Below, one piece after another: positions 13,917 through 62,186 of a DNA stretch of 64,000 nt (positions are counted from its first letter, which is position 1; every line of letters starts with the position of its first letter). The notes below the pieces were generated by a model. The model saw only the letters and a program-made list of their open reading frames with translations. It was not told the origin of the DNA and did no database searches. This DNA is from Candidatus Iainarchaeum sp. (GTDB lineage Archaea; B1Sed10-29; WALL01). Location of the stretch: contig JAGMCR010000015.1 in assembly GCA_023129115.1 (NCBI GenBank), positions 1 to 64,000 of the forward strand, written 5' to 3'. Made by a program: the position numbers and the translations under genes.

Positions 13917-14049
13917 TTTTTCCACAGCTGAAACCCAGCTGGCACGTTAGGCTTGGGAGCCTAACGGCTCCCAGAGACAATTTACTGAGGGGGGTGCGGC
14001 TTCCCAGGGTAGCCAGGGGGGAGCTGCGCTCCCCCCTAAGGACGCTGAT

Positions 14050-32618: not shown

Positions 32619-32662
32619 GGCTCGCAAAGCCTTTTATCCCTCCACCGCATTACCTGTACTCG

Positions 32663-32725
32663 ATGCCAACCTGGTCCCACTCCCGCATTTCGGCGAGTGA
32701 GTCCCTGCCCCCCGTAATTTTGTAA
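32663..32725 (+). pseudogene. 5' fragment F1 of PD-(D/E)XK anchor gene
   Basis: atgccaacctggtcccactcccgcatttcg = MPTWSHSRIS, as in the intact protein MPTWSHSRISTYENCPL; then frameshifted. Confidence 0.8.
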
Positions 32726-35173: not shown

Positions 35174-35212
35174 ATGCCAACCTGGTCCCGCTCCCGCGTT
35201 TCGGCGCACGAG
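35174..35212 (+). pseudogene. 5' fragment F2 of PD-(D/E)XK anchor gene
   Basis: atgccaacctggtcccgctcccgcgtttcggcgcacgagtcc; flanks near-identical to F1 upstream (ttttatccctcYaccgcattacYtgtactcg). Confidence 0.8.
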
Positions 35213-35229
35213 TCCCTGCCCAAATAAAA

Positions 35230-35954: not shown

Positions 35955-36016
35955 TCGGGCGACCACTTCCCACAGTTTTGTGGTCACCCAACGGGGGATA
36001 AGAAACGCTTTTATCC

Positions 36017-36045
36017 CTCTCCCGCATTTCGTGCGAGTCCTGCCC
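36017..36045 (+). pseudogene. 5' fragment F3 (truncated) of PD-(D/E)XK anchor gene
   Basis: ctcccgcatttcgtgcgagtcctgccc directly joined to the promoter ttttatccct. Confidence 0.6.
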
Positions 36046-36047
36046 TT

Positions 36048-36210
36048 GTTTTTGATATTTAAACCCCTCCAATAACTTTAAAAAGGGTGTTTTTGTGAAC
36101 CTGTTCTTAGTGCTCGAGGCGTTTGCGTATCGGCCCTTGGGTTTTACGCGCACGCGCTTGCGACGGCGCTCGCCCCGGGCTTCTGGCCCGGGCCTTTCAC
36201 TCTATTTTTT
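36048..36210. repeat. ~160-bp repeat R, copy 1 (candidate structured ncRNA)
   Basis: Near-identical to 47121..47281. Confidence 0.85.
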
Positions 36211-42957: not shown

Positions 42958-44214
42958 TTGTTAATGTCTATTGACACTCGCTTGGAAGCGCTTCTTGTTG
43001 GTGAGCTGCGGGGCGAGAACAAGAAGGTCCAGAAGCTGTGCATGGACTGGCTTAAGAAGGCCTCGAAAAAGCACAATATTTGGAACGGGCACGCCGAGGC
43101 AGTCATGATTCTTCTGGGGCACCCGCTCGTCAAGACTGATAAAGAAAACATGATGAAGGTCTTGTTGAGGGACACGGCTGACGTGGACCTCAATTTCTTG
43201 TTGAACGTGGGCCCGGCGTTAGCGACGCAGATGAGGCCCCGGGACGTCCCACGGGCGCTGAAGATGGGCTCACAGCTCTACGCGAAGAGGGGCAGCCCTG
43301 AGCACGACCCTGATTTTTTGAGGGGGATTAGGGATATGGCTCGTTCAGAGGGCGGGCTGGTGAAGCTCGAGAACGCCAACAGGATTGGAAACCACATCAT
43401 GAGCCTGGCACCCCAGCATGAGCCAAACATGATTCCTTATATCCAGAGCCTTGGCCAGGAAATGCCCGAGCAACTGGGATTTATCGCGAGCCTGCAGCAC
43501 GTGAAGACGCCTTCGTCGTACTTGTGGCAGCACAACCAGTTACTGAAGACGTTGTCGCGGTACGTGGTTGAGGGTAGGATTGGCGCGGGTGAAATGAAGA
43601 AGTTGGGCGGCCGGTTGATTGATTTGCCGCCGCCGATGGCGTTGACTGCGTTGGCGACGCGGGTGCTTCCTGCGGTGGAGAGTGGTAGTGACTTGAAGCC
43701 TGTGTTGCACGAGCTTGGGCTGAAGCGCGAGAAGAAGCGGCTTGCTGAGGAAACGGTTGCGGAGAACGAGAGGTTCGAGGAGGCGATGCGCAGCATTTGG
43801 CGGGGGAAGCAGGTGAAGCGCGAGGAGTTCGTGAAGGCAGTGAACCACGTTATTGACCATTGCGTTAAGGAATTGAAAATCATTAACGCGGAGTTCAGTG
43901 GCTTGAATTTTGTGTTGGCTCCTGTGGCTGCTCACGAGGCGGATGTTCGTGCGGGCCAGATTTACTCTATTTTGTATGGTTGTGACTTGCGTGGGTTGCT
44001 TGAGAAAGAGGACGTAAAAAAATTCACTAAGCGGATTTTGCGTGAGGTGCATCCGGGTGGCAAGCACGAGGGGTTGAAGCCCGTGTACAAAAAGTGGTTT
44101 CCGATGCTCAGCTACCGGCTTGAGGAAGGCGTGCGTGCTGACAGGGAAGTGTACTTAATCCCGAAGCACCCCGAGTCAATCAAGCGCAAAAAAACAAAGC
44201 GATTAAAGAAATAA
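42958..44214 (+). CDS. Hypothetical helical protein
   Basis: Long open frame after aaagcttttatccctcc promoter. Confidence 0.6.
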   Translation: MLMSIDTRLEALLVGELRGENKKVQKLCMDWLKKASKKHNIWNGHAEAVMILLGHPLVKTDKENMMKVLLRDTADVDLNFLLNVGPALATQMRPRDVPRALKMGSQLYAKRGSPEHDPDFLRGIRDMARSEGGLVKLENANRIGNHIMSLAPQHEPNMIPYIQSLGQEMPEQLGFIASLQHVKTPSSYLWQHNQLLKTLSRYVVEGRIGAGEMKKLGGRLIDLPPPMALTALATRVLPAVESGSDLKPVLHELGLKREKKRLAEETVAENERFEEAMRSIWRGKQVKREEFVKAVNHVIDHCVKELKIINAEFSGLNFVLAPVAAHEADVRAGQIYSILYGCDLRGLLEKEDVKKFTKRILREVHPGGKHEGLKPVYKKWFPMLSYRLEEGVRADREVYLIPKHPESIKRKKTKRLKK

Positions 44215-44276
44215 TGCCCACTTGGTCCCACAGCAGAATCAGCATTTACGAGTCCTGCCCCCTCAACTTCAGCTGA
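44214..44276 (+). pseudogene. 5' fragment F4 of PD-(D/E)XK anchor gene (MPTWSHSRISIYESCPLNFS*)
   Basis: 17 of 20 residues align with MPTWSHSRISTYENCPLKFY; ATG overlaps the preceding TAA. Confidence 0.88.
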
Positions 44277-47069: not shown

Positions 47070-47120
47070 ATGCCTATCTGGCTCCACTCCCGCATTTCGG
47101 CGAGTGAGTCCCTGCCCCCC
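47070..47120 (+). pseudogene. 5' fragment F5 of PD-(D/E)XK anchor gene
   Basis: atgcctatctggctccactcccgcatttcggcgagtgagtccctgcccccc (MPIWLHSRIS...). Confidence 0.75.
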
Positions 47121-47281
47121 TGTTTTTGATATTTAAACCCCTCCAATAACTTTAAAAAGGGTGTTTTTGTGAACCTGTTCTTAGTGCTCGAGGCGTTTGC
47201 GTATCGGCCCTTGGGTTTTACGCGCACGCGCTTGCGACGGCACTCGCCCGGGGCTTTGGGTCCCGGGCTTTTCACTTTATT
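47121..47281. repeat. ~160-bp repeat R, copy 2
   Basis: Near-identical to 36048..36210. Confidence 0.85.
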
Positions 47282-47958
47282 TCTCTTAGCGCTACGCGGT
47301 TGAGCCGCTGGTTTTTGGAGCGGGCGAGAGAGTACATGCCCAGCATTATGTCGGCGGCCTGGACTTCGGGCGATGACTGTGAGCCAATCGAGCCGGACAG
47401 CTTGATCCTTCTGCCGTTTTTGCGGTAAGCGGATAGTGAAGTGCTGTGTTTTTTACGGATTGGCGCAATGTAGGCACCCACCACAGCAAATGAGAGGTTG
47501 GACAAGAGTTCGCTTAGGAATATGTTGGATGGGCGTTGTGAGGAGGGGCTGGGGCTTGGAACCAATGCGTCAAAGTCCGTGTCCGGCACGACTGTAATAC
47601 TGTCAGTGCGTTCGTTGATTAAGTAGCCAATGTCTGCAGCGATGGCGGCGGGGCATTCTTTGAGGTAGTAGTTTCTTCTTGATTTTTCGCCTCTTGTTGC
47701 CAAGAATATGATTGCCCTGAGCCCGAGTGCCTCAAGGGCGTTGTGGTGTTCGGCCAGTATGCGCTCCCTCAGTGGCGCTTTTATGTGTTTCCAGTGGATG
47801 CTGCCGGTGTAGCCGTTCAAGCGAGCGGTGGATTCAATGCTGGAAACAAAGCGGTTGATTGCTTCCGGGCTTCCGACTACTGCACAGATGAGTCTCCGCC
47901 CTTTGCTGTGCCTGCCCTTGTCTTTTGACGTGTCGATGCCGACAGCAATGTTTCCCAC
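47272..47958 (-). CDS. DUF3800-like (RNase H-like fold) protein
   Basis: N-terminal AVGIDTSKDKGRH; QAADIMLGMYSLARSK. Confidence 0.55.
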   Translation of the reverse strand: MGNIAVGIDTSKDKGRHSKGRRLICAVVGSPEAINRFVSSIESTARLNGYTGSIHWKHIKAPLRERILAEHHNALEALGLRAIIFLATRGEKSRRNYYLKECPAAIAADIGYLINERTDSITVVPDTDFDALVPSPSPSSQRPSNIFLSELLSNLSFAVVGAYIAPIRKKHSTSLSAYRKNGRRIKLSGSIGSQSSPEVQAADIMLGMYSLARSKNQRLNRVALREIK

Positions 47959-49135: not shown

Positions 49136-50284
49136 ATGCCCACCTGGAGCCATAGTAGAATCTCGACGTACGAGAATTGCCCCCTGAAATTTTATTACAC
49201 TTACGTCGAGAAGCCGGACGTGGAGGAGGTATTGGGTGACAATATCGCTCTTGTGCTGGGCAAGAGCTGTCACGAGGCGCTCGAGTGGCTGTACAAAGAG
49301 CTGTCCTTCGGCCGGGAGCCGTCCCTGGACGACGCCATCGACTATTATACCCAATCCTGGGGCAAGATGTGGACTCCGGACGTGATTATCCCCCGTTTTG
49401 ACGAAAAAACGTGGAAAAAGCTTGGCATCCGGTACCTCGGCGACTTTTACAACCGGCACTCGCCGTTTATCGAGGACCGTACCGTGGCCCTCGAGAGAAT
49501 GGTTCGCCTTAAAATCGGCAAGTACTCGTTAATCGGGTATATTGACCGTGTTGCCGAGGCTTCTCCGGGCCACTACAAAATCATTGATTACAAGACGACT
49601 AAGAGGCTTCAGGGGCAGGACTGGTTTGACAGTGACCGCCAGCTCGCTCTCTACGAAATTGGCTTGCGCCAGATGTTCAGGGACGTGGAGGAGGTGGACC
49701 TCGTGTGGCACATGCTTCACTTCAACAAGGAGATTGTTTCTCGCCGGACTCCGGGGCAGCTGGAGCAGTTGAAGAGTGACACGATTGAATTGATTAGTAC
49801 TATTGAGGCTGCTGAAGAGTATCCCGCCAAAGTGTGTGGGCTTTGCCCGTGGTGCAGCTTCCAAGAAATCTGTCCCAAAAAAAAGCACGAGCGCGCCACC
49901 ACGCGCATGACCGTCCGCGAGTTCCGCAGGGACGAGGGCGTTCGCGTGGCGAACAAGTTTGTGCAGACGAAGCTGAAGCTGGACGAGTGGGGGATAAAGA
50001 ACGCGGACGCGCGGAAGGACGTGCTGGCGTATTCGAAGCAGCACGACACCAGCAAAGTCATTGGGTCGAAGGCGGCTGTGGCCGTCTCGACGATGAAGAG
50101 GGTATCGTTCGACCCCAAAGTGGAGAAATTGTTGAAGAAAGAGGGGTTGTGGGAGAAGTACTCGAAGTTGGATTCTGCTGCTCTTGTGCGTGAGCTTGAG
50201 GGCCTTGACCCGAAAATCAGGGGAAAGCTTGTCAAGCTTGAGGAGACTAAAGAGTCTAAAGCTGTGCGTGTTGTGAAGAAGTGA
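49136..50284 (+). CDS. PD-(D/E)XK nuclease, RecB/Cas4-like, intact anchor gene
   Basis: MPTWSHSRISTYENCPLKFYYTYVEKP; LGKSCHEALE; IGYIDRVAEASPGHYKIIDYKTTK; CGLCPWCSFQEICP (possible Fe-S cysteines). Confidence 0.85.
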   Translation: MPTWSHSRISTYENCPLKFYYTYVEKPDVEEVLGDNIALVLGKSCHEALEWLYKELSFGREPSLDDAIDYYTQSWGKMWTPDVIIPRFDEKTWKKLGIRYLGDFYNRHSPFIEDRTVALERMVRLKIGKYSLIGYIDRVAEASPGHYKIIDYKTTKRLQGQDWFDSDRQLALYEIGLRQMFRDVEEVDLVWHMLHFNKEIVSRRTPGQLEQLKSDTIELISTIEAAEEYPAKVCGLCPWCSFQEICPKKKHERATTRMTVREFRRDEGVRVANKFVQTKLKLDEWGIKNADARKDVLAYSKQHDTSKVIGSKAAVAVSTMKRVSFDPKVEKLLKKEGLWEKYSKLDSAALVRELEGLDPKIRGKLVKLEETKESKAVRVVKK

Positions 50285-50333: not shown

Positions 50334-51833
50334 ATGCCTAGGAAGAAACACACGGCCGTGCGCCACCCGGACATTGAGTTGGGGGTCAAGAGGGTTACTG
50401 ACGGGAGCATCGAAAAGCTCACTGATGCGAGGGGGGAGCCTTTCACTAGGTCCGAACGCATCAAATTGATGGCGGGCGACCGCAAGGTCTTCGGGAAGGG
50501 CATTGAGGAATTGTTTGACAAGGCAATCAGGGAACTGAAAAAGATTCCTAAGGAAAAGATGGAGCGGCGGAAGCTGATTTACGAGGGCTTGCTCGGCGAG
50601 GTGGAGTCCAAGCTCAAGATTGGTGACTCCGACCGGTTTTTGGCGCACGAAATGATGGTCCAGACTGATTTGGGCAGCATGGTCAAGGCGATTGCGCAGG
50701 GGTCGGACATTAATTTGGACACTGTTGACACCCAAGCAGTGGACAAGGCGGTTGGTACCGCGAGGGACATGTATTACGGCACGAATAAGACAAAGGACGA
50801 GGCCTTGACGAAGAGCCTTGAGGTCTTGATGGCGGACGAGGGCGTCTCGAAGCAGTTCGATGGGGAGTGGGAGGTGGCCGCGCACTTGTCGCCCAAGGAC
50901 CGGGCAAGGTTTTTGATGGCTGTGATGCACAAGGACGATTACTTGATACACCAATTAATCCAGCAGAGGGACGAGAACAAGGAAATGACCAAGGACCAGC
51001 TCCAAAGCATGCTGGATAATTTTGGTTTAACTGAAAAAGATTTTTCGAAGAAAGAGTTGGAGGAGTTGGGGGTTACTATTCACATGGGCAAGAACAAAGA
51101 GATTTTGTTGGACATGGCCAAGATTCTTATCATGGCTGACCTGGACCCCCACAAGCTTTTGGAGTTGCCCAAAGAAGAGAAGCGCACTGCTGTGCTCAGC
51201 ATTTTTTCTCATGAAGCCCTTGACCCCTTGAAGGTGCTGCAGAAGCTTCCTTCTGTCGCGAGGGGCTTGGCGTTGAGGTCTCTTGAGGGCATAAGCAAAA
51301 ATGCTAAGGAGGGGGACAAGGAGGCCAAAGACATGCATAGGTCCAGCCTTATGCTGCACAGCCTTAACATACACAACCCGAGGGAGCGGGAGGCCTTGGC
51401 CGAGATTGTGGCGCTTGCTGACGATAGTGCTGAGTGGGACAAAGAGCTGTCCGCCAGCATAATCAAGAGGCATGGGCTGGAGAAAGAAGCCGAGTTCAAC
51501 AGGTACATGGTGAACCTACGGGACATTGTCGACCAGCCGGCCCACTTCAACCGCTTTTTGGAGCTGGCGTGGGACTTGGATGACAAGGACAAAGTTGGGG
51601 AGATTGGCTTTGACGCGTCGAACCCTGACCACAAAAAGGCGTTCATGAAGATTAGGGGCGAGCTCTTGAAGATAAAGCTTGGCAGTGGGGGCCTCAAGGA
51701 CAATAACGCCGAGGCCGTGGAAAAGCGGGTGCTGACGGAAATGGGCTTGCTCGAAGAAGTCACGAAAAGGCGCAAAAAGAAAGAAAAAAGCGAGAAACGC
51801 GTCAAAGAGCGGTGGAAAAACATTTACGCTTGA
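50334..51833 (+). CDS. Hypothetical helical protein, 499 aa
   Basis: Open frame; stop codon lies in the adjoining nuclease 3' fragment. Confidence 0.65.
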   Translation: MPRKKHTAVRHPDIELGVKRVTDGSIEKLTDARGEPFTRSERIKLMAGDRKVFGKGIEELFDKAIRELKKIPKEKMERRKLIYEGLLGEVESKLKIGDSDRFLAHEMMVQTDLGSMVKAIAQGSDINLDTVDTQAVDKAVGTARDMYYGTNKTKDEALTKSLEVLMADEGVSKQFDGEWEVAAHLSPKDRARFLMAVMHKDDYLIHQLIQQRDENKEMTKDQLQSMLDNFGLTEKDFSKKELEELGVTIHMGKNKEILLDMAKILIMADLDPHKLLELPKEEKRTAVLSIFSHEALDPLKVLQKLPSVARGLALRSLEGISKNAKEGDKEAKDMHRSSLMLHSLNIHNPREREALAEIVALADDSAEWDKELSASIIKRHGLEKEAEFNRYMVNLRDIVDQPAHFNRFLELAWDLDDKDKVGEIGFDASNPDHKKAFMKIRGELLKIKLGSGGLKDNNAEAVEKRVLTEMGLLEEVTKRRKKKEKSEKRVKERWKNIYA

Positions 51834-51876
51834 GGAGACTAAGGAGTCTAAAGCTGTGCGTGTTGTGAAGAAGTAG
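51829..51876 (+). pseudogene. 3' fragment T1 of PD-(D/E)XK anchor gene (LEETKESKAVRVVKK*)
   Basis: Almost identical nucleotides to 50238..50284. Confidence 0.92.
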
Positions 51877-52401
51877 GTGATGTTAATGGCGGGTAAAAAA
51901 AAGAAAAAGGGAAAAGCTTTTCAGGCTCTGCCTGAGAAATGGGTGAAGCCGTTGAGGGAGCTTGACGTGTACAGTGCCTTGGTCAAGGTGCTGGGGTTGA
52001 CGTTGTTGGGGGTTTTCCTCTATTCCTGGTTGTGGGCACCAGACGAGAGGTGGATTGTAGTGCTGCCCCTCGCGTTCGCTTCGATTTCACTGGGTAATTT
52101 GCTCCCGATAGCCGTTGGCAATTTGTTGGGGAACAAGTGGGGGAAGAAAGCGCCGTGGCAGGGCTTCGCTGTTTTAGTGACTGCGTATTCGGTGGTGTGG
52201 TCCGTGGTTGTGTGGCTCTTTAGCCGGTTGAACGCCGGTTTAATCGCGACTGTTTTGGGCCTAATCCTGTTCTACTCCATCTTCCAGTCTTATTACCAGA
52301 CGAGCCACAAGCACGCGGTATACGCGGCACTCTTGTTTGGCCTGCTATTGCCGGCTTTGGTGCTCGGGATGCTGATGGGCATGATAGGGGCGTTGCCGTA
52401 A
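51877..52401 (+). CDS. Four-TM membrane protein, paralogue of 25466..25981
   Basis: LPEKWVKPLRELD; GNKWGKKAPWQGF. Confidence 0.65.
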   Translation: MMLMAGKKKKKGKAFQALPEKWVKPLRELDVYSALVKVLGLTLLGVFLYSWLWAPDERWIVVLPLAFASISLGNLLPIAVGNLLGNKWGKKAPWQGFAVLVTAYSVVWSVVVWLFSRLNAGLIATVLGLILFYSIFQSYYQTSHKHAVYAALLFGLLLPALVLGMLMGMIGALP

Positions 52402-52403
52402 CC

Positions 52404-52490
52404 CGGGAACTTGTGGGCTGTAATCCGGGGCTGAAGAAGAAGCTTGAGGAAACAAAAGAGTCTTTGTCTGTGCGTGTTGTGAGGAAGTGA
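52404..52490 (+). pseudogene. 3' fragment T2 (RELVGCNPGLKKKLEETKESLSVRVVRK*)
   Basis: Aligned to RELEGLDPKIRGKLVKLEETKESKAVRVVKK*; followed by the same gaaacgcttttattct promoter. Confidence 0.9.
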
Positions 52491-52526
52491 AACGCTTTTA
52501 TTCTGCTGCCTGCTTATCCATTAGTG

Positions 52527-53255
52527 ATGGCAGTGAGTAAGTTTGATTGGAGTTCAGTGGATTTGGAGGGCCCGGAGGCAGTGGGCCGCATTGCTGAGAA
52601 CGTTTCGTTAAGGGAAATTGACAAGCACTTGGAGGCGGGCAACGAGGCGCTTAGGAATAGTGAGGGTGCTGGCGTCCAGGCCGTGTTGGCGGCGGCTTTC
52701 GGTGGCGTGGACGAGGTGAATGCCGCCAATCTCCCGAAGGCGGTGGAGGGTGTTGCTGAGGGCCGGGCTAAGCTGAAGAGGATTATGGGTGTTCTTTCCG
52801 AGGCCAGGGAGAGGCGGGAGGAAGTGGTGGCAAGCGATGCGCGGAGGTATGCGCGCGAGAACGACTTGTTCAGTGTCCACAAGAAGCTGAACAGTGTTGA
52901 GGAAGCGCTTTTGGGCACGCGTGGGGGCCAGGCCGCTGATGCGGAGGTCATCCAGCGGAGTAATATGCACAGGGTTTTCATGCAGCGGCTTGCCGAAGAA
53001 AAAGCGGTGCCTGTTGCTGGTGGAGTGGCTCTTGCTCGCCTGAGGGAGATGGATGCGGCGCTTGAGAGGGACGTCAAGCGCTTTCGGAGGGGTCGGCTGG
53101 ACAAGGCGTTGGAGCGTGCGGCCGGGTTCCAGGGCCTTGTGCGGCAGCGCATCGAGCTCACTGAGAAGGCTTCGGTGCTCAAGTCCCCCAAACGCTCCAC
53201 GGGGAAGAAGCGCGGGTTCGTAATGGCGCAGCCAAAAGAAAAGCCAAGAAAGTAA
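52527..53255 (+). CDS. Hypothetical helical protein
   Basis: Open frame; stop lies in T3. Confidence 0.6.
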   Translation: MAVSKFDWSSVDLEGPEAVGRIAENVSLREIDKHLEAGNEALRNSEGAGVQAVLAAAFGGVDEVNAANLPKAVEGVAEGRAKLKRIMGVLSEARERREEVVASDARRYARENDLFSVHKKLNSVEEALLGTRGGQAADAEVIQRSNMHRVFMQRLAEEKAVPVAGGVALARLREMDAALERDVKRFRRGRLDKALERAAGFQGLVRQRIELTEKASVLKSPKRSTGKKRGFVMAQPKEKPRK

Positions 53256-53280
53256 GGCTGTTAGGGTGGTTAAGAAATAA
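53248..53280 (+). pseudogene. 3' fragment T3 (ESKAVRVVKK*)
   Basis: gaaagtaaggctgttagggtggttaagaaataa, same allele type as T4. Confidence 0.85.
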
Positions 53281-54804: not shown

Positions 54805-54872
54805 CCAATACACGTCCAAAACACTTAAATATAGCCCCGGGGTAGTTGATATCCACCTAGCTAAACGCGGGG

Positions 54873-54977
54873 GCGTTGGCGAGGGAGCTTGATGGGCTTG
54901 ACGAGGGGCTGAGGAAGAAGCTGGAAAAACTTGAGGAGACTAAGGAGAGTAAGGCTGTTAGGGTGGTTAGAAAATGA
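54873..54977 (+). pseudogene. 3' fragment T4 (ALARELDGLDEGLRKKLEKLEETKESKAVRVVRK*)
   Basis: 35 codons in frame, aligned to the end of 49136..50284; stop overlaps the ATG of the RM gene. Confidence 0.95.
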
Positions 54978-57900
54978 CTGAGAAAGAACAACTGGCCGGG
55001 GAGCCCTTATTTAACAAGTTAGTTGTTGAATTTCAATTGCGGAGTTTTGATAGACCTCTACATTCCTTTGGAAAAGAGCAAAAAACTGAATATGAATTAT
55101 TTAAATCGACGGTTCTTGATGATTTGCCAGAAGTTCTGATGGGAGATATTGGGAAAGAGAACCCAACCGTCATAGCCCAGTATCTGTCTGGGACAGAGGA
55201 GAATGTTAAGAATAAAGTGATAGAACCTTTACTATGCCAGTTTTTAGGGTTTAAGAAAAAACAATTTCAGTATGAACCTGCAGTTAGAATGGAAGATGGA
55301 ACAGGCCATATAGATATCGTAATCAACGTAGATCCAAAATACAAGATATTAGTAGAAACAAAGAGTTGGAGGACTGATCTCAATAAACGGGTGGGAAAAT
55401 ACAAGAAAAGTGCCATCGTCCAAGCATTTGAGTATGCTGAAGCACACGGGATCAATTGGGTAGTTGTGACAAATGGCTATGAACTGCGGCTATATAATCG
55501 TAAAGAAGGTAGTACAAAATATGAGAAGTTCCTTTTAGATGATCTAAACAACCCTCTGGCAGTTGGTAGAACATCGGCTTTCCATCCTAAGAGAGTTTAT
55601 ACCCTATTATCCAATGAGTCTTTTGTTAGCCGAATCCAAGATAAGATATTGGAGCAAAGTGAGGAACACCTAAATGATTTAGGGGAATACATCTATGAAG
55701 TGATAAAGGAACTACGGAATGAATTGGCTAATAACATACTCCGTAAAGACAAACAAATAATCCAGAGGTATATGGAATCTTCAGGACTAACTGAAAAGCA
55801 GAGTAATCAGCTTGTTTTGGATATAATACAAACGTTCATAGATAGATTAATCTTCATTCGCTTTGCAGAGGGCAGGGGGCTTCTACCTGAACCCTATGAC
55901 GCAAACTTTACAGCTCACTTAAAGGAGCTCTGGCAGACAGCAAGAGCGGATATACCAGATTTAACGTTTTTTGATTACCTAAGAAAACTATTTAGAAAGA
56001 TTGATGAAGGCAACTTCAAAGACCCAAACCGGCGATTCTTTGGCTATAATGGTGGACTTTTTGCCCCTAACACCATTCTAGACAATCCCCACTTCCAGAT
56101 AGACGACCACGTAGTTTGGGATGTCATATTGAGATTAAATAAATATGCGCCGAAAAAAAAGACAAAAAAGATTAAACATTTGATGTTAGAAAAAAATGAG
56201 AAGATCAACTTCTCTGAAGTTCCAGTGGAGGTTCTTGGACATATTTATGAAAAGTACTTAGGTCTATCCATTGACCTAGATTGGAAGAGTATCCACCCCA
56301 AAGTCATAATCGACGAGACTAAAGAAAAAAGAAAGGAAGCTGGAGTGTATTACACGCCCAAACATATCACAGAGTACATAGTTAAAAATACTGTTGGAAG
56401 CTTTTTGAAAGAAAATCTAGATAGGTTAGATAACATAAACGTGGTCGATCCAGCTTGTGGTTCTGGGACCTTTTTGCTAAGCGCTTACGAATATTTGTTT
56501 GATAACCAGATTGAAACAACCGCTCTTTCAGATAAGTCACTTAAAAGTTACGTTGTCAGAATCAAAAAACTAATCAAGATACTCAGTCAAAGAGATACCG
56601 CCATCAAAGACAAGGAAAAACTTGCGGAAAAGGTTGGCCTTTCTTTGTTCGAAATAAACAATACTATCCAAGACCTGCTCGGAAAGAACATTCTTCTTAT
56701 AAGCCCAGACGGGTATTATCGACTATCCCCCAAAATGTATGATAAAGAGATGATAAACGAGGACTTACTAACGCAGTATTTGAAAAGTAAGTTACGTTTC
56801 CTTGCTTTAGATATGGTTACAAACAAAAAAAAGGTGCACATAAACGAACATATACTGAAAACTAATCTTCATGGGGTGGATCTCCAATCTCGTGCTGTTG
56901 AAATAACAAAACTGAGCTTATGGCTTAAAACGGCGATCAAGAACGCAAAACTCATAAATCTTGGCACGCAGATTCTAGAAGGTAACTCTCTGATAACGGG
57001 TGTTGAAGGCCCAGAGGAACTGAAGCAGTTCAAAACGGAACTAAATGAAATAATTAAATTAGAAGAACATCTTGAAAGCTTAGATGAAACAAAAGAGTCT
57101 CACCAAAAAATACGCAAACTAGTCAATGAAATAAAATCTGATAAGAAAGAACTTGTTGAGTTATTGGATAAAAACCTTGTTAAAGAGGATGACGAAGGTT
57201 ATTTTGACAATATAAAAAACATAAAACCGTTTGACTGGGAAGTTGAGTTTCCGACCGTATTTGATGATGGGAATAATCCCGGATTTGATGTTGTTATTGG
57301 TAACCCACCATATAGCGCTAAGTTGTCTAAAGCGGAAAGAGGCTATATACGGGATACTTACCCCGCAACAAAAGGAAACACGGATACAGCTATAGCATTT
57401 ATCAACCATGCGTATACCTTATTAAAAAAAGGTGGTTATCTCGGTTTTATTGTGCCAAAATCGCTTTTGTACAGTGATACGTGGGTGGCATGTCGAGAGT
57501 TTATTTTACCGGATCTAGTGAAACTGGTCGATGTTAGCAAGGCTTTTGAGGGTGTCCGGCTTGAACAAGTTATTATAATCCTAAAGAAAGGCAGTGCTTC
57601 AAAGACTTACGCAATTGAATTTTTGGGTTCCACAAAACATCACGAAATAAAAAAGAGCAACTTGAAGAAATTCGGTATAATCCTTAATGAGATTGGACAA
57701 GACGAATTAAAACTCGGCCTGAATCTTTCGGGTAAAGCTAGACTCTCTGACGTTGCTGATTTAGAACGCGGACTGGGCCTACAAGATGAGCTCTCTCAGA
57801 CAGGATCTAAACGGATTTATGGTGGTTCCAGTGTTGGGAGATTCTTACTAAAACCTACGGATAGGTTCATAAGCAGCACTACCTACGCAAAACATGCGAA

Positions 57901-58387
57901 TAAACTACGTGTACAAGAAACTCCTAAGGTTATAATGCAGAACATCGTTGCCCACGTAACCAAACCGAAGGACCACTTGCTGTTTATCTCAACATTTGAT
58001 TATGAGGGGATCTTAACTTTAGATACGGTTGTGAACATCAGTCCCAAAGCGGATTTCGACCCGTTTGTTTTAGTGGGAATACTCAATTCTAAACTATTTT
58101 CTTGGTATGCGTACCGATTCATTTACGCCAAAGCAATAAGAAATATGCATTTTGACAAATGCCATCTGAATAAATCGCCTTTGTGTAAGCTCCCAATCAA
58201 CAAAAGAGTTTATAACCGATTGAGATCTTTGGTTGATGAATGCTGCACTATAGGGAAAAATGGTCAAATCCCCAAAAATCTTGAAGAAGAATGGTCTACA
58301 AAAGAAAAGGAAATAAACGAATTAGTTTATGAGGCGTATGGGCTTGGTAGAGAGGACAGCAAAATTATAGAGCGTAGTTTCCGTTAA
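54974..58387 (+). CDS. Type IIG restriction-modification enzyme (Eco57I-like, fused nuclease + N6-adenine methyltransferase)
   Basis: GHIDIVINVDPKYKILVETKSW nuclease motif; VDPACGSGTFLLSAYEYL; DVVIGNPPYSAKL. Confidence 0.9.
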   Translation: MTEKEQLAGEPLFNKLVVEFQLRSFDRPLHSFGKEQKTEYELFKSTVLDDLPEVLMGDIGKENPTVIAQYLSGTEENVKNKVIEPLLCQFLGFKKKQFQYEPAVRMEDGTGHIDIVINVDPKYKILVETKSWRTDLNKRVGKYKKSAIVQAFEYAEAHGINWVVVTNGYELRLYNRKEGSTKYEKFLLDDLNNPLAVGRTSAFHPKRVYTLLSNESFVSRIQDKILEQSEEHLNDLGEYIYEVIKELRNELANNILRKDKQIIQRYMESSGLTEKQSNQLVLDIIQTFIDRLIFIRFAEGRGLLPEPYDANFTAHLKELWQTARADIPDLTFFDYLRKLFRKIDEGNFKDPNRRFFGYNGGLFAPNTILDNPHFQIDDHVVWDVILRLNKYAPKKKTKKIKHLMLEKNEKINFSEVPVEVLGHIYEKYLGLSIDLDWKSIHPKVIIDETKEKRKEAGVYYTPKHITEYIVKNTVGSFLKENLDRLDNINVVDPACGSGTFLLSAYEYLFDNQIETTALSDKSLKSYVVRIKKLIKILSQRDTAIKDKEKLAEKVGLSLFEINNTIQDLLGKNILLISPDGYYRLSPKMYDKEMINEDLLTQYLKSKLRFLALDMVTNKKKVHINEHILKTNLHGVDLQSRAVEITKLSLWLKTAIKNAKLINLGTQILEGNSLITGVEGPEELKQFKTELNEIIKLEEHLESLDETKESHQKIRKLVNEIKSDKKELVELLDKNLVKEDDEGYFDNIKNIKPFDWEVEFPTVFDDGNNPGFDVVIGNPPYSAKLSKAERGYIRDTYPATKGNTDTAIAFINHAYTLLKKGGYLGFIVPKSLLYSDTWVACREFILPDLVKLVDVSKAFEGVRLEQVIIILKKGSASKTYAIEFLGSTKHHEIKKSNLKKFGIILNEIGQDELKLGLNLSGKARLSDVADLERGLGLQDELSQTGSKRIYGGSSVGRFLLKPTDRFISSTTYAKHANKLRVQETPKVIMQNIVAHVTKPKDHLLFISTFDYEGILTLDTVVNISPKADFDPFVLVGILNSKLFSWYAYRFIYAKAIRNMHFDKCHLNKSPLCKLPINKRVYNRLRSLVDECCTIGKNGQIPKNLEEEWSTKEKEINELVYEAYGLGREDSKIIERSFR

Positions 58388-58466: not shown

Positions 58467-58757
58467 TCACAATATACCTTTTTTCATTGCTTTCTTAACT
58501 AACTGCTTTGCTATCCGCTTATCACAAGACAAGGGCCTCTGGCCGTAGATCCAGTGGTTTTTTCCTTCTGGTTTAACCCAATAAGTAAATCGGACTCCAG
58601 TTTCTCCTTCATCCCATTTTATTAGCTGTATCTTACGCTTAAACGTTCCTTCGCCGGGATAGGACGTTGTATGCTCTACTTCATCCAACACGGTGCCTTG
58701 AACTAATTCACCACTGAGAGCAGTATACTCCGTACGGTCACCAATAGTTTGCACCAT
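58467..58757 (-). CDS. Hypothetical protein, 96 aa
   Basis: Open frame, AT-rich upstream. Confidence 0.5.
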   Translation of the reverse strand: MVQTIGDRTEYTALSGELVQGTVLDEVEHTTSYPGEGTFKRKIQLIKWDEGETGVRFTYWVKPEGKNHWIYGQRPLSCDKRIAKQLVKKAMKKGIL

Positions 58758-58799: not shown

Positions 58800-58869
58800 C
58801 TAGCAATACGCCGCCCGCCTATACCCCTTATACCCCCTATCCCGCCCTCTCGAAGCAAAGCTGGTTTTC
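58800..58869 (-). pseudogene. 3' fragment of Ada-type Zn-domain gene, copy c (degenerate)
   Basis: ENQLCFERA ... frameshift ... GYRRAAYC* vs ENRIYFDNTVEAEDAGYRKALVC*. Confidence 0.65.
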
Positions 58870-58938
58870 CTGCTTTAGCCTTGGGAGAAATCTTGGGTTT
58901 GAACATAGGAATAAAAAGTAGTTTGGGGTGGATAACTT

Positions 58939-59712
58939 GTGTTAAATGAACTGGAAGAGTACTATAAGGGCCAAGGCATATACTCTATTGGTTTCCATTG
59001 TAAACATCTTGAGTCATGCCTCTCAAAAGTAGATAACCCCCATGAGTTCACTAAAGGTAAAGCTGCTTATGTAGGCCAAAAATATGAAGAGGGGCTCGTG
59101 CCCCGGCTGCTCTTCTTATCACTAGATGCAGGCGCACAGAACGAAGATCCTGTCAAACGAACACTTATTGGGGTTAGGGGAGAAACTGAAAAAAACCCCT
59201 TAACTGATGGCAAACACAAACACTGGTATAAAACACATGAATTTGCTTGTAGTGTGTTTAATGAGCTTTGTGGTGAAAAACGGTTTGGTGTACACCAAAT
59301 AAAACCGTATTTTGCTCATACTAATAGTGCCAAATGTTGTATGAATAACCCCCATAATGCGGAAGCAAACTCTACTTTGTTCCACAATTGTAGGGAGTAT
59401 ATCCTGCCTGAAATTGAAATCTTGGCACCAGAAGTGGTTGTAACACAAGGGAATCGCGCGTGGGACGTCATTGCCACAGAATTAAACAAGAAAATAACTC
59501 CATTATCAAAAGAGATGAACCTATCCCACAACCCAGACTACGATTTAAGAGAGATTGAGTACCCAAAAAATAAAAGAGTTATGTGGGTTCATCACTACCA
59601 CCCCCGCAGTGGGAGGTACTTTGCTAAAAATCTTGAGAAGTATGAAGTATATGCAAAAGAAATCGCTACTTTTTTAAGAAAACATTATCCAAAAAAAGTT
59701 AAGAATGTGTAG
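58939..59712 (+). CDS. Uracil-DNA glycosylase superfamily-like protein
   Basis: RLLFLSLDAGAQNEDP; FHNCREYILPEIEILAPEVVVTQGNRAWDVI; HHYHPRSG. Confidence 0.6.
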   Translation: MLNELEEYYKGQGIYSIGFHCKHLESCLSKVDNPHEFTKGKAAYVGQKYEEGLVPRLLFLSLDAGAQNEDPVKRTLIGVRGETEKNPLTDGKHKHWYKTHEFACSVFNELCGEKRFGVHQIKPYFAHTNSAKCCMNNPHNAEANSTLFHNCREYILPEIEILAPEVVVTQGNRAWDVIATELNKKITPLSKEMNLSHNPDYDLREIEYPKNKRVMWVHHYHPRSGRYFAKNLEKYEVYAKEIATFLRKHYPKKVKNV

Positions 59713-59734
59713 AACGAAACGGCTCAATGATGGC

Positions 59735-59761
59735 CTAAGACCACGCCGCCTTCCTATAGCC
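59735..59761 (-). pseudogene. 3' fragment of Ada-type gene, copy b (GYRKAAWS*)
   Basis: Same C-terminal signature and in-frame stop. Confidence 0.55.
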
Positions 59762-59777
59762 CTGAAGCGATTTTGTT

Positions 59778-59915
59778 TCATGCTTCATTGAGGGCGTCTT
59801 TTAATTGTTTCAGGCAGCCATCACAAAGGAGTATGTTACCTACTTTATGACCCATAGTCCCCTCATCATCTAGTTCATCCATAACTACATCATCACAAAA
59901 CGCACATTTGGACAT
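59778..59915 (-). CDS. 45-aa zinc-ribbon-like protein (not in supplied ORF list)
   Basis: MSKCAFCDDVVMDELDDEGTMGHKVGNILLCDGCLKQLKDALNEA*; CxxC...CxxC. Confidence 0.65.
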   Translation of the reverse strand: MSKCAFCDDVVMDELDDEGTMGHKVGNILLCDGCLKQLKDALNEA

Positions 59916-59954
59916 GAACAGACTTTACACTAAAGTATATTTAAAGTTGACTGT

Positions 59955-60038
59955 TCAACACCACACCGCCTTCCTATACCCCTCACCCTCCGCTTGTTGA
60001 GCCGTCTCGAACCAAACCCTGTTCTCCGGCTTAATCCT
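59955..60038 (-). pseudogene. 3' fragment of Ada-type gene, copy a (RIKPENRVWFETAQQAEGEGYRKAVWC*)
   Basis: 28 in-frame codons aligned to RIKPENRIYFDNTVEAEDAGYRKALVC*. Confidence 0.9.
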
Positions 60039-61887
60039 TAACCCTTTGATTTAAGTTTTTTACAAACTCGACATAAAGTGGGTATCTTTCTTTTACTTGG
60101 GAGATACTTTTATTTTTGATGTCCAAAATAACCGCTCTCACGATTTGTTTCTTTAACTCTTCAAGACGCCCATCTGTATGGATTTTTTCTCGTTTTTTTA
60201 TCGTTTTTATGTGACTAAGAATCGCTGCATCACCCGGAGAATTAAACGTATATCCGTACAGTTTATTTGCAAGGGATAGGACAATCTCCTCAGGTAATAA
60301 GTCCTCTGTAGTAGCTTTAGGTTTAGGTACGTCAACGAGGTCCTTTAATTCAAAAGTCTTGTTTTTGAAGGCTGTGTCGGTAGTGACAATAGTTCTTTTG
60401 ACACCTTGACCGTCTTTATCTGAGTCAACTACTACAAACCCTTTCACTAATTTTTGATCAAAGAACTTGGCGTATCTAGGTATTTGTTTTACTCCCGTTG
60501 CAAAGATTGTTTTTATTCGAGAGGGTTTAATCTTAGTTTTAAATTTCCGGGTGAATGTATCAAATAAGTCTTTATCAATTCTTCCTTCAAATATGATGAC
60601 ATTTGGCTCAATGAGTTCATAAATCGTTGTACCGAGTGCTTCGTATATTACCTCTTCTTGGAGGGGGTCGTCTCTACTAACTCTCTGGATTTTGGTTTCG
60701 CCGTTTTCCTTAATCACGTTATAATGGCGGTCTATGTCTTTTTTATCTACCATAAATATTGAATGTGATGCGCAAAATACTATGTTATTTTTCGCTATAT
60801 TCAGTAGTTCATCTCTAAGGTATCTCACGCTACTAGGATGTAAACTTCTTTCAGGTTCGTCAAGAAGGATGACTTTATTTCTCAGTTGGTTTATTTTGTT
60901 CTCAACTGAAAGAGTAAGTAGTATAGATATAAAATGCTGGAAACCATCACTCCGCTGTTTCATAGTAAACTTTGGCGTGACGTTATCTTTATCTTCTACA
61001 AAGACAATACATTGATTATTCGCTTCGAACCTTAGGGATATGTTAATCTTGTGTTCTGGCCATAACTCGTTTAAGTGTTTGGTTATCGCTTTTGATAATA
61101 TCCCTTCCATTTCAGCTCTATCTCCAGGACTTTTTTGTATCCGGTCTAGATTAGTGATTAAGGCCTCCCCCTCAAAACCCGCTAAGTGGAAAATATTCCT
61201 CAGAGGGATAGAAGTGTCTAGATTCTGTCTAAATTGCTCTAGATTAATTGGTTCATTTATTAAGTGTTTGGGGTCTGGTTTCCATAGAATCACTTCAGGC
61301 AGTAGGGCATCTAACTGTCCGCCTATTTGGGGTCCAACATTCTTACTTAAAATAGCTTCATCAAGCTTAGTATACCTATCATCTAAAGGGTCATTTAAAC
61401 GGTTTAAAATCTCCTTAGACTCATCGGACTTATCCAACGAAACTTCAAGCGAGATCTTATTCTTTTCGCTATCGTAAATAAAGTGGTCGTATTTGATTCC
61501 TCCAAAATGGAGGTTGTAACTGTCTTCCTTTTTCGAATTTTTATCAAATGAAACTAGTTTTTCAACTCCAGTTATCTTAATTTGCCGACGTAGCGAAGGA
61601 GGCCCATCAATCTTTTCAACAATCTTGGGGAGATCACCATCTTCTAATCCGAAAAGATAGTTTAGTTCAACCTTTTCGTTTTGAGAACGGGCTTTTTTGT
61701 TGCAGTCAACATCGTATTGGAAGTCTAATCCGCTCTGTAGGAGGCTTATGGCTCGCAGAATATTGCTTTTACCTGTTCCATTTATACCAAAAAACATGAA
61801 GCACTTTTTGTCAGCTATTTCTTCGATACTCACCTCTAAATCCTTTACACAACGATAATTAGATATCGTAATTTTCTTAAGTAACAT
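60031..61887 (-). CDS. OLD-family ATPase with TOPRIM domain
   Basis: ISNYRCVKDLEVSI...FFGINGTGKSNIL; VILLDEPERSLHP; IIFEGRIDKDLF...VVVDSDKDGQG. Confidence 0.88.
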   Translation of the reverse strand: MLLKKITISNYRCVKDLEVSIEEIADKKCFMFFGINGTGKSNILRAISLLQSGLDFQYDVDCNKKARSQNEKVELNYLFGLEDGDLPKIVEKIDGPPSLRRQIKITGVEKLVSFDKNSKKEDSYNLHFGGIKYDHFIYDSEKNKISLEVSLDKSDESKEILNRLNDPLDDRYTKLDEAILSKNVGPQIGGQLDALLPEVILWKPDPKHLINEPINLEQFRQNLDTSIPLRNIFHLAGFEGEALITNLDRIQKSPGDRAEMEGILSKAITKHLNELWPEHKINISLRFEANNQCIVFVEDKDNVTPKFTMKQRSDGFQHFISILLTLSVENKINQLRNKVILLDEPERSLHPSSVRYLRDELLNIAKNNIVFCASHSIFMVDKKDIDRHYNVIKENGETKIQRVSRDDPLQEEVIYEALGTTIYELIEPNVIIFEGRIDKDLFDTFTRKFKTKIKPSRIKTIFATGVKQIPRYAKFFDQKLVKGFVVVDSDKDGQGVKRTIVTTDTAFKNKTFELKDLVDVPKPKATTEDLLPEEIVLSLANKLYGYTFNSPGDAAILSHIKTIKKREKIHTDGRLEELKKQIVRAVILDIKNKSISQVKERYPLYVEFVKNLNQRVKD

Positions 61888-61967
61888 GCCCTACACCCTG
61901 CCTTCAAACGTTAGCATTCTTTCTAAAAAAGCGTATTTATAATTGTTTGTTACTCCTTGCCGAGGGT

Positions 61968-62186
61968 TTAACAAACCAAAGCTTTCCTATACCCCGCATC
62001 TTCTGCCTCAACAGTGTTATCAAAATAGATTCGATTCTCCGGCTTAATCCTATTAGCATACATGCACCCCGGCCGGTGATAAACGTCCGAGTTCTTGCTG
62101 CCCACGAACGGGCCTTCGTAGGTCAAGTCATCCCACTGCAGGGCGAGGACGAGGAGCACAACGACAAAGACAAGCCACAGCTTCAT
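61968..62186 (-). CDS. Membrane-anchored Ada-type Zn-binding domain protein, intact second anchor gene
   Basis: TM then FVGSKNSDVYHRPGCMYANRIKPENRIYFDNTVEAEDAGYRKALVC. Confidence 0.75.
   Translation of the reverse strand: MKLWLVFVVVLLVLALQWDDLTYEGPFVGSKNSDVYHRPGCMYANRIKPENRIYFDNTVEAEDAGYRKALVC

Follow-up and report, generated by a model that had tools for sequence, protein, structure and literature searches.

Downstream copies of gene 3′ ends at unrelated protein and tRNA genes suggest recurrent insertion in a Candidatus Iainarchaeum genome

Tandem integration at the 3′ ends of genes is already known in both archaea and bacteria. In Escherichia coli K-12, the icd gene is intact by virtue of a 3′ end supplied by prophage e14, and the displaced old end (icdC) lies beyond the insert. 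Integrated elements of thaumarchaea use 3′-distal regions of protein genes as targets, replace the stop codon, re-use their sites or form tandem arrays, and occupy both transfer RNA (tRNA) and protein genes within one genome (PMC6563490). For the orphan-immunity arrays of the Vibrio cholerae type VI secretion system, homology-facilitated illegitimate recombination has been proposed (PMC5361080). Arrays of a similar kind are described here from Candidatus Iainarchaeum sp., in a stretch of DNA (the window) comprising the first 64,000 bases of contig C7 (JAGMCR010000015.1; 74,155 bases) of an archaeal assembly (1.247 Mb, 19 contigs, completeness 88.6%). In these arrays an intact gene (the anchor) is followed by unrelated small genes (the cargo) interspersed with copies of its own 3′ end. 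The preferred explanation, to which a probability of about 0.55 may be given, is recurrent insertion at gene 3′ ends, whereby a replacement end would arrive with the incoming DNA and the former end would remain behind. The case is a variant of a known phenomenon and represents no new category. It stands out for its many and varied anchors, for cargo that is small and free of recombinase genes, for involving tRNA genes and 5′ ends as well, and for an almost complete lack of enzymes capable of driving such events.

The resemblance to e14 has its limits: that prophage measures 15 kb, encodes its own integrase and has a single target, whereas the arrays described here are stacked, have small cargo without an integrase, and occur at many targets. 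The thaumarchaeal elements are matched by the arrays of this archaeal family in their 3′-distal targets, replaced stop codon, re-use of one site and mixture of tRNA and protein targets; however, they are multigene proviruses, casposons, conjugative and cryptic elements that integrate via tyrosine recombinases or casposases, mostly at att sites shorter than 26 bp (PMC6563490). In the V. cholerae arrays, as here, the newest module lies beside a conserved gene, older pieces and 3′ ends of the gene have moved downstream, and no integrase is present (PMC5361080). Their cargo, in contrast, consists of a variable gene end plus its immunity partner, while in the present case it is unrelated to the anchor and the anchors are many (PMC5361080). 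Ordered small gene cassettes, the newest nearest the anchor, also recall integron cassette arrays, but neither attC sites nor an integron integrase are present here, and the repeat is a piece of a host gene. Short paired-hairpin repeats dispersed at gene ends are shared with the IS200/605-derived PATEs and REP elements; unlike these, the repeats of this genome are followed by copies of gene 3′ ends, and no Y1 transposase was found in three genomes.

The first array is anchored by an intact gene encoding a small secreted or membrane-tethered protein with an Ada-type Zn domain (Table 1). This protein scored 24.1 bits against the NCBIfam sunset model, slightly below the cut-off of 27, and in four related genomes of the family the gene gave one weak match and was otherwise absent. 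A first-pass annotation, made from the sequence alone, had read the locus as the anchor followed by an OLD gene, fragment a of the anchor 3′ end, a zinc-ribbon open reading frame (ORF), fragment b, an inverted UDG-like gene, fragment c and a 96-aa ORF, with every insertion trailed by a copy of the anchor 3′ end. All of these features were recovered at the positions originally assigned to them, and the trailing copies were confirmed, although b proved weaker than a and c, which are the best matches in the genome after the gene itself. The stop codon (TAA) of the OLD gene falls within fragment a. The product of the inverted gene scores far under the cut-offs for family-4/archaeal UDGs.

The significance of the Ada fragments was assessed by comparing the last 30 residues of the anchor, aligned from the stop, with the 30 codons preceding each of the 68,358 stop codons of the genome. 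Besides the gene itself, fragment a was the top match (score 91), while fragment c (score 31) was second best after the gene itself (rank 3) and fragment b (score 22) took rank 12. A 27-nucleotide (nt) probe from fragment a, run against both strands (2.5 Mb), found only five places with at least 20 of 27 matches; four of them are fragment a, fragment b, the intact end and fragment c, all on one strand and within 3.2 kb. The Ada fragments are not chance matches: the case for a and c is secure, while b, weak if taken alone, is backed by its position and DNA sequence. Since cargo sequence abuts each fragment, no full-length gene is hidden upstream of any of them, which rules out misread starts of complete Ada-type genes, an explanation that the first-pass annotation had considered.

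The second array, which had been cited as a parallel, is also real. It lies on the plus strand and is anchored by a PD-(D/E)XK nuclease gene followed by four 3′-end fragments whose identity to the gene drops with distance (96, 85, 67 and 63%), as expected if new insertions land beside the gene. No homologue of the nuclease was found in ten related genomes, and searches of viral contigs with the nuclease and with OLD revealed no relatives.

The nuclease gene also has 5′-end copies (MPTWSHSRIS...) upstream on the same strand, mirroring the 3′ copies downstream, and another such piece may lie near window position 36016. A repeat of ~200 nt (window 36016–36207 and 47084–47282, 91% identical) adjoins the nuclease 5′ fragments. 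A comparable 5′-end copy lies ~100 nt upstream of a dCTP-deaminase-like gene (contig C13:42494–43164), with a hairpin repeat (CCCCGGCAATCC...) in between and many synonymous differences.

In an analysis of the whole genome, the C-termini of 1,414 ORFs were compared with every in-frame stop codon no more than 20 kb away (score at least 44). Same-strand downstream copies numbered 19; there were 2 upstream copies, and the opposite strand had none. Some of these matches are short-range repeats or paralogues, but the majority copy the C-terminus of a gene with a Pfam identification. The copies flank unrelated single-copy genes, namely those for enolase, DNA ligase, PCNA, MscS, Hef, aldehyde dehydrogenase and the nuclease. 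As a control, the scan was run on 100 kb of E. coli K-12, where it returned icd/icdC only, the known e14 prophage site. Application to 733 kb of a same-genus genome yielded further cases at uppS (with a related AAA_14-DUF4143 ATPase as cargo), at a flavin reductase gene (with a HicB-like cargo gene) and at TFB. C-terminal copies at unrelated genes are thus more widely spread than the first-pass annotation had suggested, extending to the same-genus relative.

The cargo has a content typical of mobile and defence regions (ParE/RHH, MNT-HEPN, HicB-like, AAA_14-DUF4143, OLD and type IIG restriction-modification proteins), and within the Ada, nuclease and PCNA arrays the cargo segments are mutually unrelated. 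Comparison with relatives shows that the extra enolase end is present in the window's genome only, each of the 11 relatives with a match having a single copy. At MscS, a pyrF-like gene lies directly downstream in the same-genus genome, the site being empty there; here the ATPase, the fragment and another gene intervene. The genes downstream of PCNA differ in each relative, and a nucleotidyltransferase-HEPN pair recurs in one of them (JAUVIW010000024.1, 6537–8664). The presence of this pair behind PCNA in a second species suggests that the PCNA 3′ side is a recurrent landing place. An assembly error was judged unlikely: the copies are diverged, no joining sequence is common to cargo ends and anchors, and independent assemblies have the same pattern.

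In a comparison of gene and copy over 15 events, identity was 79% in the last 30 nt (stop codon included) and 34% in the 30 nt that follow. Homology ceases at the stop codon in 13 events, and the stop codons of gene and copy often differ. A long target-site duplication was therefore rejected, since its homology would extend to the insertion point irrespective of gene boundaries. The fragments start about 27 to 120 nt ahead of the stop; the two PCNA fragments share nearly the same start base, as do Ada fragments a and c, and the fragments of the nuclease array differ in both start and length.

Synonymous and nonsynonymous differences between gene and copy stand at 4:0 for enolase, 6:1 for ligase and 3:0 for PCNA, with 6:0 and 5:0, counted by eye from the alignments, at two loci with hairpin inserts; the aldehyde dehydrogenase pair, whose alignment was off by one codon, is left out of these counts. 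Under decay after local duplication, the pooled ratio of 24:1 (no more than one nonsynonymous change in 25) has a probability of 8e-7 or less. Such nearly all-synonymous divergence indicates that the most similar copies parted as working alleles and were not duplicated locally and then left to decay. The end of one allele has thus become attached to the remainder of another, either by an insertion that brought a new end or by later replacement of the gene allele. The former is favoured, since the copies break off precisely at the stop codon and each stop is followed by different DNA. The fragment stop codon is that of the same-genus relative in PCNA and MscS; otherwise, the enolase, PCNA and MscS sequences did not separate the native end from the new one. 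Older copies, Ada fragments included, carry both synonymous and nonsynonymous changes.

The ends of tRNA genes are copied in the same manner. A scan with the last 18 nt of each tRNA gene (at least 15 matches, up to 400 nt downstream) detected downstream 3′-end copies at 10 of the 47 tRNA genes; it found no copies upstream, and the ends of other tRNAs were not present in the downstream stretches. A stricter 24-nt probe detected tRNA-Thr alone; the copies are shorter than this, hence the 18-nt test. Copies were also found at 8 of 30 tRNA genes in the same-genus genome and 2 of 12 in a family-level relative. The insert between tRNA gene and copy is usually a two-hairpin element of ~60–150 nt, whose sequence differs among the three genomes and whose plan is alike. 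In the window's genome, a two-hairpin repeat of ~60 nt (hairpin, AAGCCTAACGTGCC, hairpin), with compensating changes in the stems, has 38 detectable copies; for the stretches searched, Rfam contained no matching family. A copy of upstream DNA starts right after the second hairpin in 20 of these 38 elements (5% expected), and in some small events the insert is the repeat alone, without cargo. Behind tRNA-Thr, several 3′-end copies are spread across ~25 kb (contig C12:74872–99214).

Profile searches with Pfam, PADLOC and curated models identified no recombinase among the ORFs of the arrays. The genome encodes one Pfam tyrosine recombinase, of the XerA type (C12:78360–79529), just behind one of the tRNA-Thr end copies; it scores 46.8 bits against the integron integrase model (cut-off 265). 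No serine recombinase was found in the window's genome. Casposons and retroelements were rejected, since three genomes contain neither Cas1 nor a match to the reverse transcriptase family RVT_1; the Y1 HUH transposase family (Y1_Tnp) had no match in them either. Tyrosine recombinases are absent from 8 of 11 genomes of the order, one of which, 98% complete, still has tRNA-end copies. Enzymes able to drive the insertions are therefore nearly absent from the genome, DDE transposases not having been searched for.

In the proposed mechanism, the incoming DNA would carry cargo directly behind a copy of the gene's end; a related strain, a related species or a previous insertion would be the source of that copy. 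Recombination with the resident gene would give a full reading frame closed by the incoming copy, leaving the resident's own final 25–120 nt stranded on the far side of the cargo. Repeated events would push older cargo and older ends outward, the Ada locus being a putative stack of such insertions, and the same process may act on many unrelated protein genes and tRNA genes across the archaeal family. Functionally, this would resemble tandem integration at an attB within the 3′ end of a gene, the difference being that the element encodes no recombinase. Short-homology, one-sided (homology-facilitated) recombination with imported DNA is the likeliest driver. Homology-facilitated illegitimate recombination needs no enzyme of the element and so would account for an imported gene end joined to unrelated cargo; the synonymous-type divergence of the most similar copies is consistent with it. 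The import of the new end together with the cargo, the polarity and the recombination pathway are inferred, whereas the anatomy, its generality, the sharp limit at the stop codon, the synonymous-type divergence of the most similar copies and the lack of recombinase genes in the cargo are observed. The first-pass annotation had proposed a general 3′-end capture process. Its generality is borne out by the strand and position bias of the copies, the unrelated genes affected, the same-genus cases and the tRNA genes of three genomes, while the nuclease 5′-end copies show that the process is not strictly confined to 3′ ends and the capture step itself would be one interpretation of the anatomy.

Several observations weigh against this mechanism. 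No copy is longer than ~120 nt, a limit not expected from free homologous recombination; a conceivable reason, offered as a guess, is that cargo between longer direct repeats is lost by recombination, so that short copies persist. The nearly identical start base of two fragments in each of the PCNA and Ada arrays resembles a fixed crossover site, and the precise right edge of the hairpin-element events is unexplained by homology-facilitated recombination. For older copies such as fragment a, in which nonsynonymous changes are numerous, import is conjectural. Moreover, allele replacement following local duplication could imitate the synonymous signal.

The arrays might instead be relics of ordinary integrative elements, the anchor 3′ ends having served as attB for integrase-bearing plasmids or viruses that restored the gene end and whose integrase genes were since lost. 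Exact restoration of functional gene ends is classical attB logic, and direct repeats of this type are present here; the icd/e14 site yields the same signal in the same scan, and thaumarchaeal elements use protein-gene 3′-distal regions, bring new stops and form arrays (PMC6563490). The common start points of the PCNA and Ada fragments and the empty sites of relatives at enolase and MscS would also fit, as would the tRNA-Thr end copies, which over ~25 kb surround the only tyrosine recombinase of the genome. However, more than 20 unrelated anchors would demand equally many specificities, cargo may amount to no more than a 60-nt hairpin, and fragment lengths are unequal inside the nuclease array. 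With one tyrosine recombinase here and none in most genomes of the order, including the nearly complete one with end copies, element-encoded integrases explain the tRNA-Thr region well and the remaining loci poorly, and as a general account this origin is possible but rather unlikely.

Local duplication, in which a gene end and adjacent DNA were tandemly duplicated by slippage at hairpins or unequal exchange and the cargo arrived independently, is improbable. It would suit the Hef-anchored unit, a diverged tandem duplication, and some hairpin cases that are plain tandem repeats of the 3′ end plus hairpin (contig C9:44389/44502; tRNA-Cys in the same-genus genome); yet the cargo segments of the Ada, nuclease and PCNA arrays are unrelated to one another, the synonymous-only divergence of the most similar copies is not decay, and the homology stops so regularly at the stop codon. 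Less credible still is an unrecognised transposition system with the two-hairpin element as its minimal unit and larger cargo carried along. The right edge of the element does abut gene-end copies well above expectation, and a common two-hairpin plan recurs with differing sequences in three genomes; against this, cargo events, including the Ada array, lack such a hairpin at the right edge, and no candidate enzyme was found. Insertion of imported DNA at gene 3′ ends thus remains the preferred reading. Its broadest form, to be regarded as tentative and rather doubtful, would be a general process of this archaeal family that acts at tRNA and protein genes without a known recombinase, uses the gene's own end as recombination site and stacks toxin-antitoxin and defence cassettes, the two-hairpin element being its smallest mobile unit.

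Table 1. Features of the arrays and gene-end copies (window positions unless a contig is named).
Feature	Position	Strand	Details
Anchor, Ada-type Zn-domain gene (sunset-like), intact, 72 aa	61968..62186	-	Ada_Zn_binding PF02805 29.7 bits, cut-off 23
Cargo 1, OLD-family ATPase/TOPRIM nuclease	60031..61887	-	AAA_15 63 bits, OLD-like_TOPRIM 27 bits, PADLOC Old 91 bits
Ada 3′ fragment a	59955..60038	-	84 nt; reads RIKPENRVWFETAQQAEGEGYRKAVWC, then stop; 64% DNA identity to gene end, key residues retained
Cargo 2, CxxC/CxxC microprotein	59778..59915	-	ORF, 45 aa; sub-threshold Pfam match only
Ada 3′ fragment b	about 59735..59763	-	27 nt; 23/27 to fragment a, second-best 27-mer of the genome after fragment a itself
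Cargo 3, UDG-superfamily gene, inverted	58939..59712	+	PF03167 28.3 bits, above cut-off
Ada 3′ fragment c	about 58800..58870	-	~70 nt; degenerate, frame lost; end GYRRAAYC, then stop
ORF downstream of fragment c	58467..58757	-	96 aa; no Pfam or PADLOC match
Anchor, PD-(D/E)XK nuclease (Cas4/RecB-like)	49136..50284	+	PDDEXK_1 102 bits; Cas4 models below curated cut-off
Nuclease 3′ fragment 1	51828..51876	+	47 nt, 98%
Nuclease 3′ fragment 2	52392..52504	+	65 nt, 89%; protein-level match longer
Nuclease 3′ fragment 3	53248..53280	+	ESKAVRVVKK, then stop; score 49, fourth best besides the gene itself
Nuclease 3′ fragment 4	54858..54977	+	39 codons, 69% aa, E 1.8e-8; overlaps start of type IIG restriction-modification gene (ATGA)
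Type IIG-like restriction-modification gene, between the two converging arrays	54974..58387	+	Eco57I 112 bits, PADLOC REase_MTase_IIG 171 bits
Nuclease 5′-end fragment, upstream	47070..47120	+	92% to 32663-32713; reading MPxWxHSRIS
Nuclease 5′-end fragment	44214..44276	+	76% aa over residues 1-21, E 8.2e-5
Nuclease 5′-end fragment	35174..35221	+	91% to copy at 32631
Nuclease 5′-end fragment	32663..32713	+	Sequence match to 47070-47120 copy
Enolase end copy	1.3 kb downstream		85 nt, 95% identical; cargo TPR protein
ATP-dependent DNA ligase end copy			105 nt, 93%; cargo two small ORFs
MscS end copy			85 nt, 82%; cargo AAA_14-DUF4143 ATPase
PCNA end copies			59 and 57 nt; cargo ParE/RHH and MNT-HEPN modules
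Hef end copy			66 nt; unit is a diverged tandem duplication
Two-hairpin repeat, example site	near 13954	-	
Two-hairpin repeat, example sites	C7:67306, 68608, 72021		

These arrays bear on the question of how small archaeal genomes with few mobile elements gain defence and toxin-antitoxin genes. The old gene end behind each newcomer is a readable footprint: sequence alone allows events to be counted, placed in order and dated, and copies of gene ends offer an easy way to look for cargo boundaries in other streamlined genomes. Should the process involve no recombinase, gene ends would in themselves be universal landing sites.

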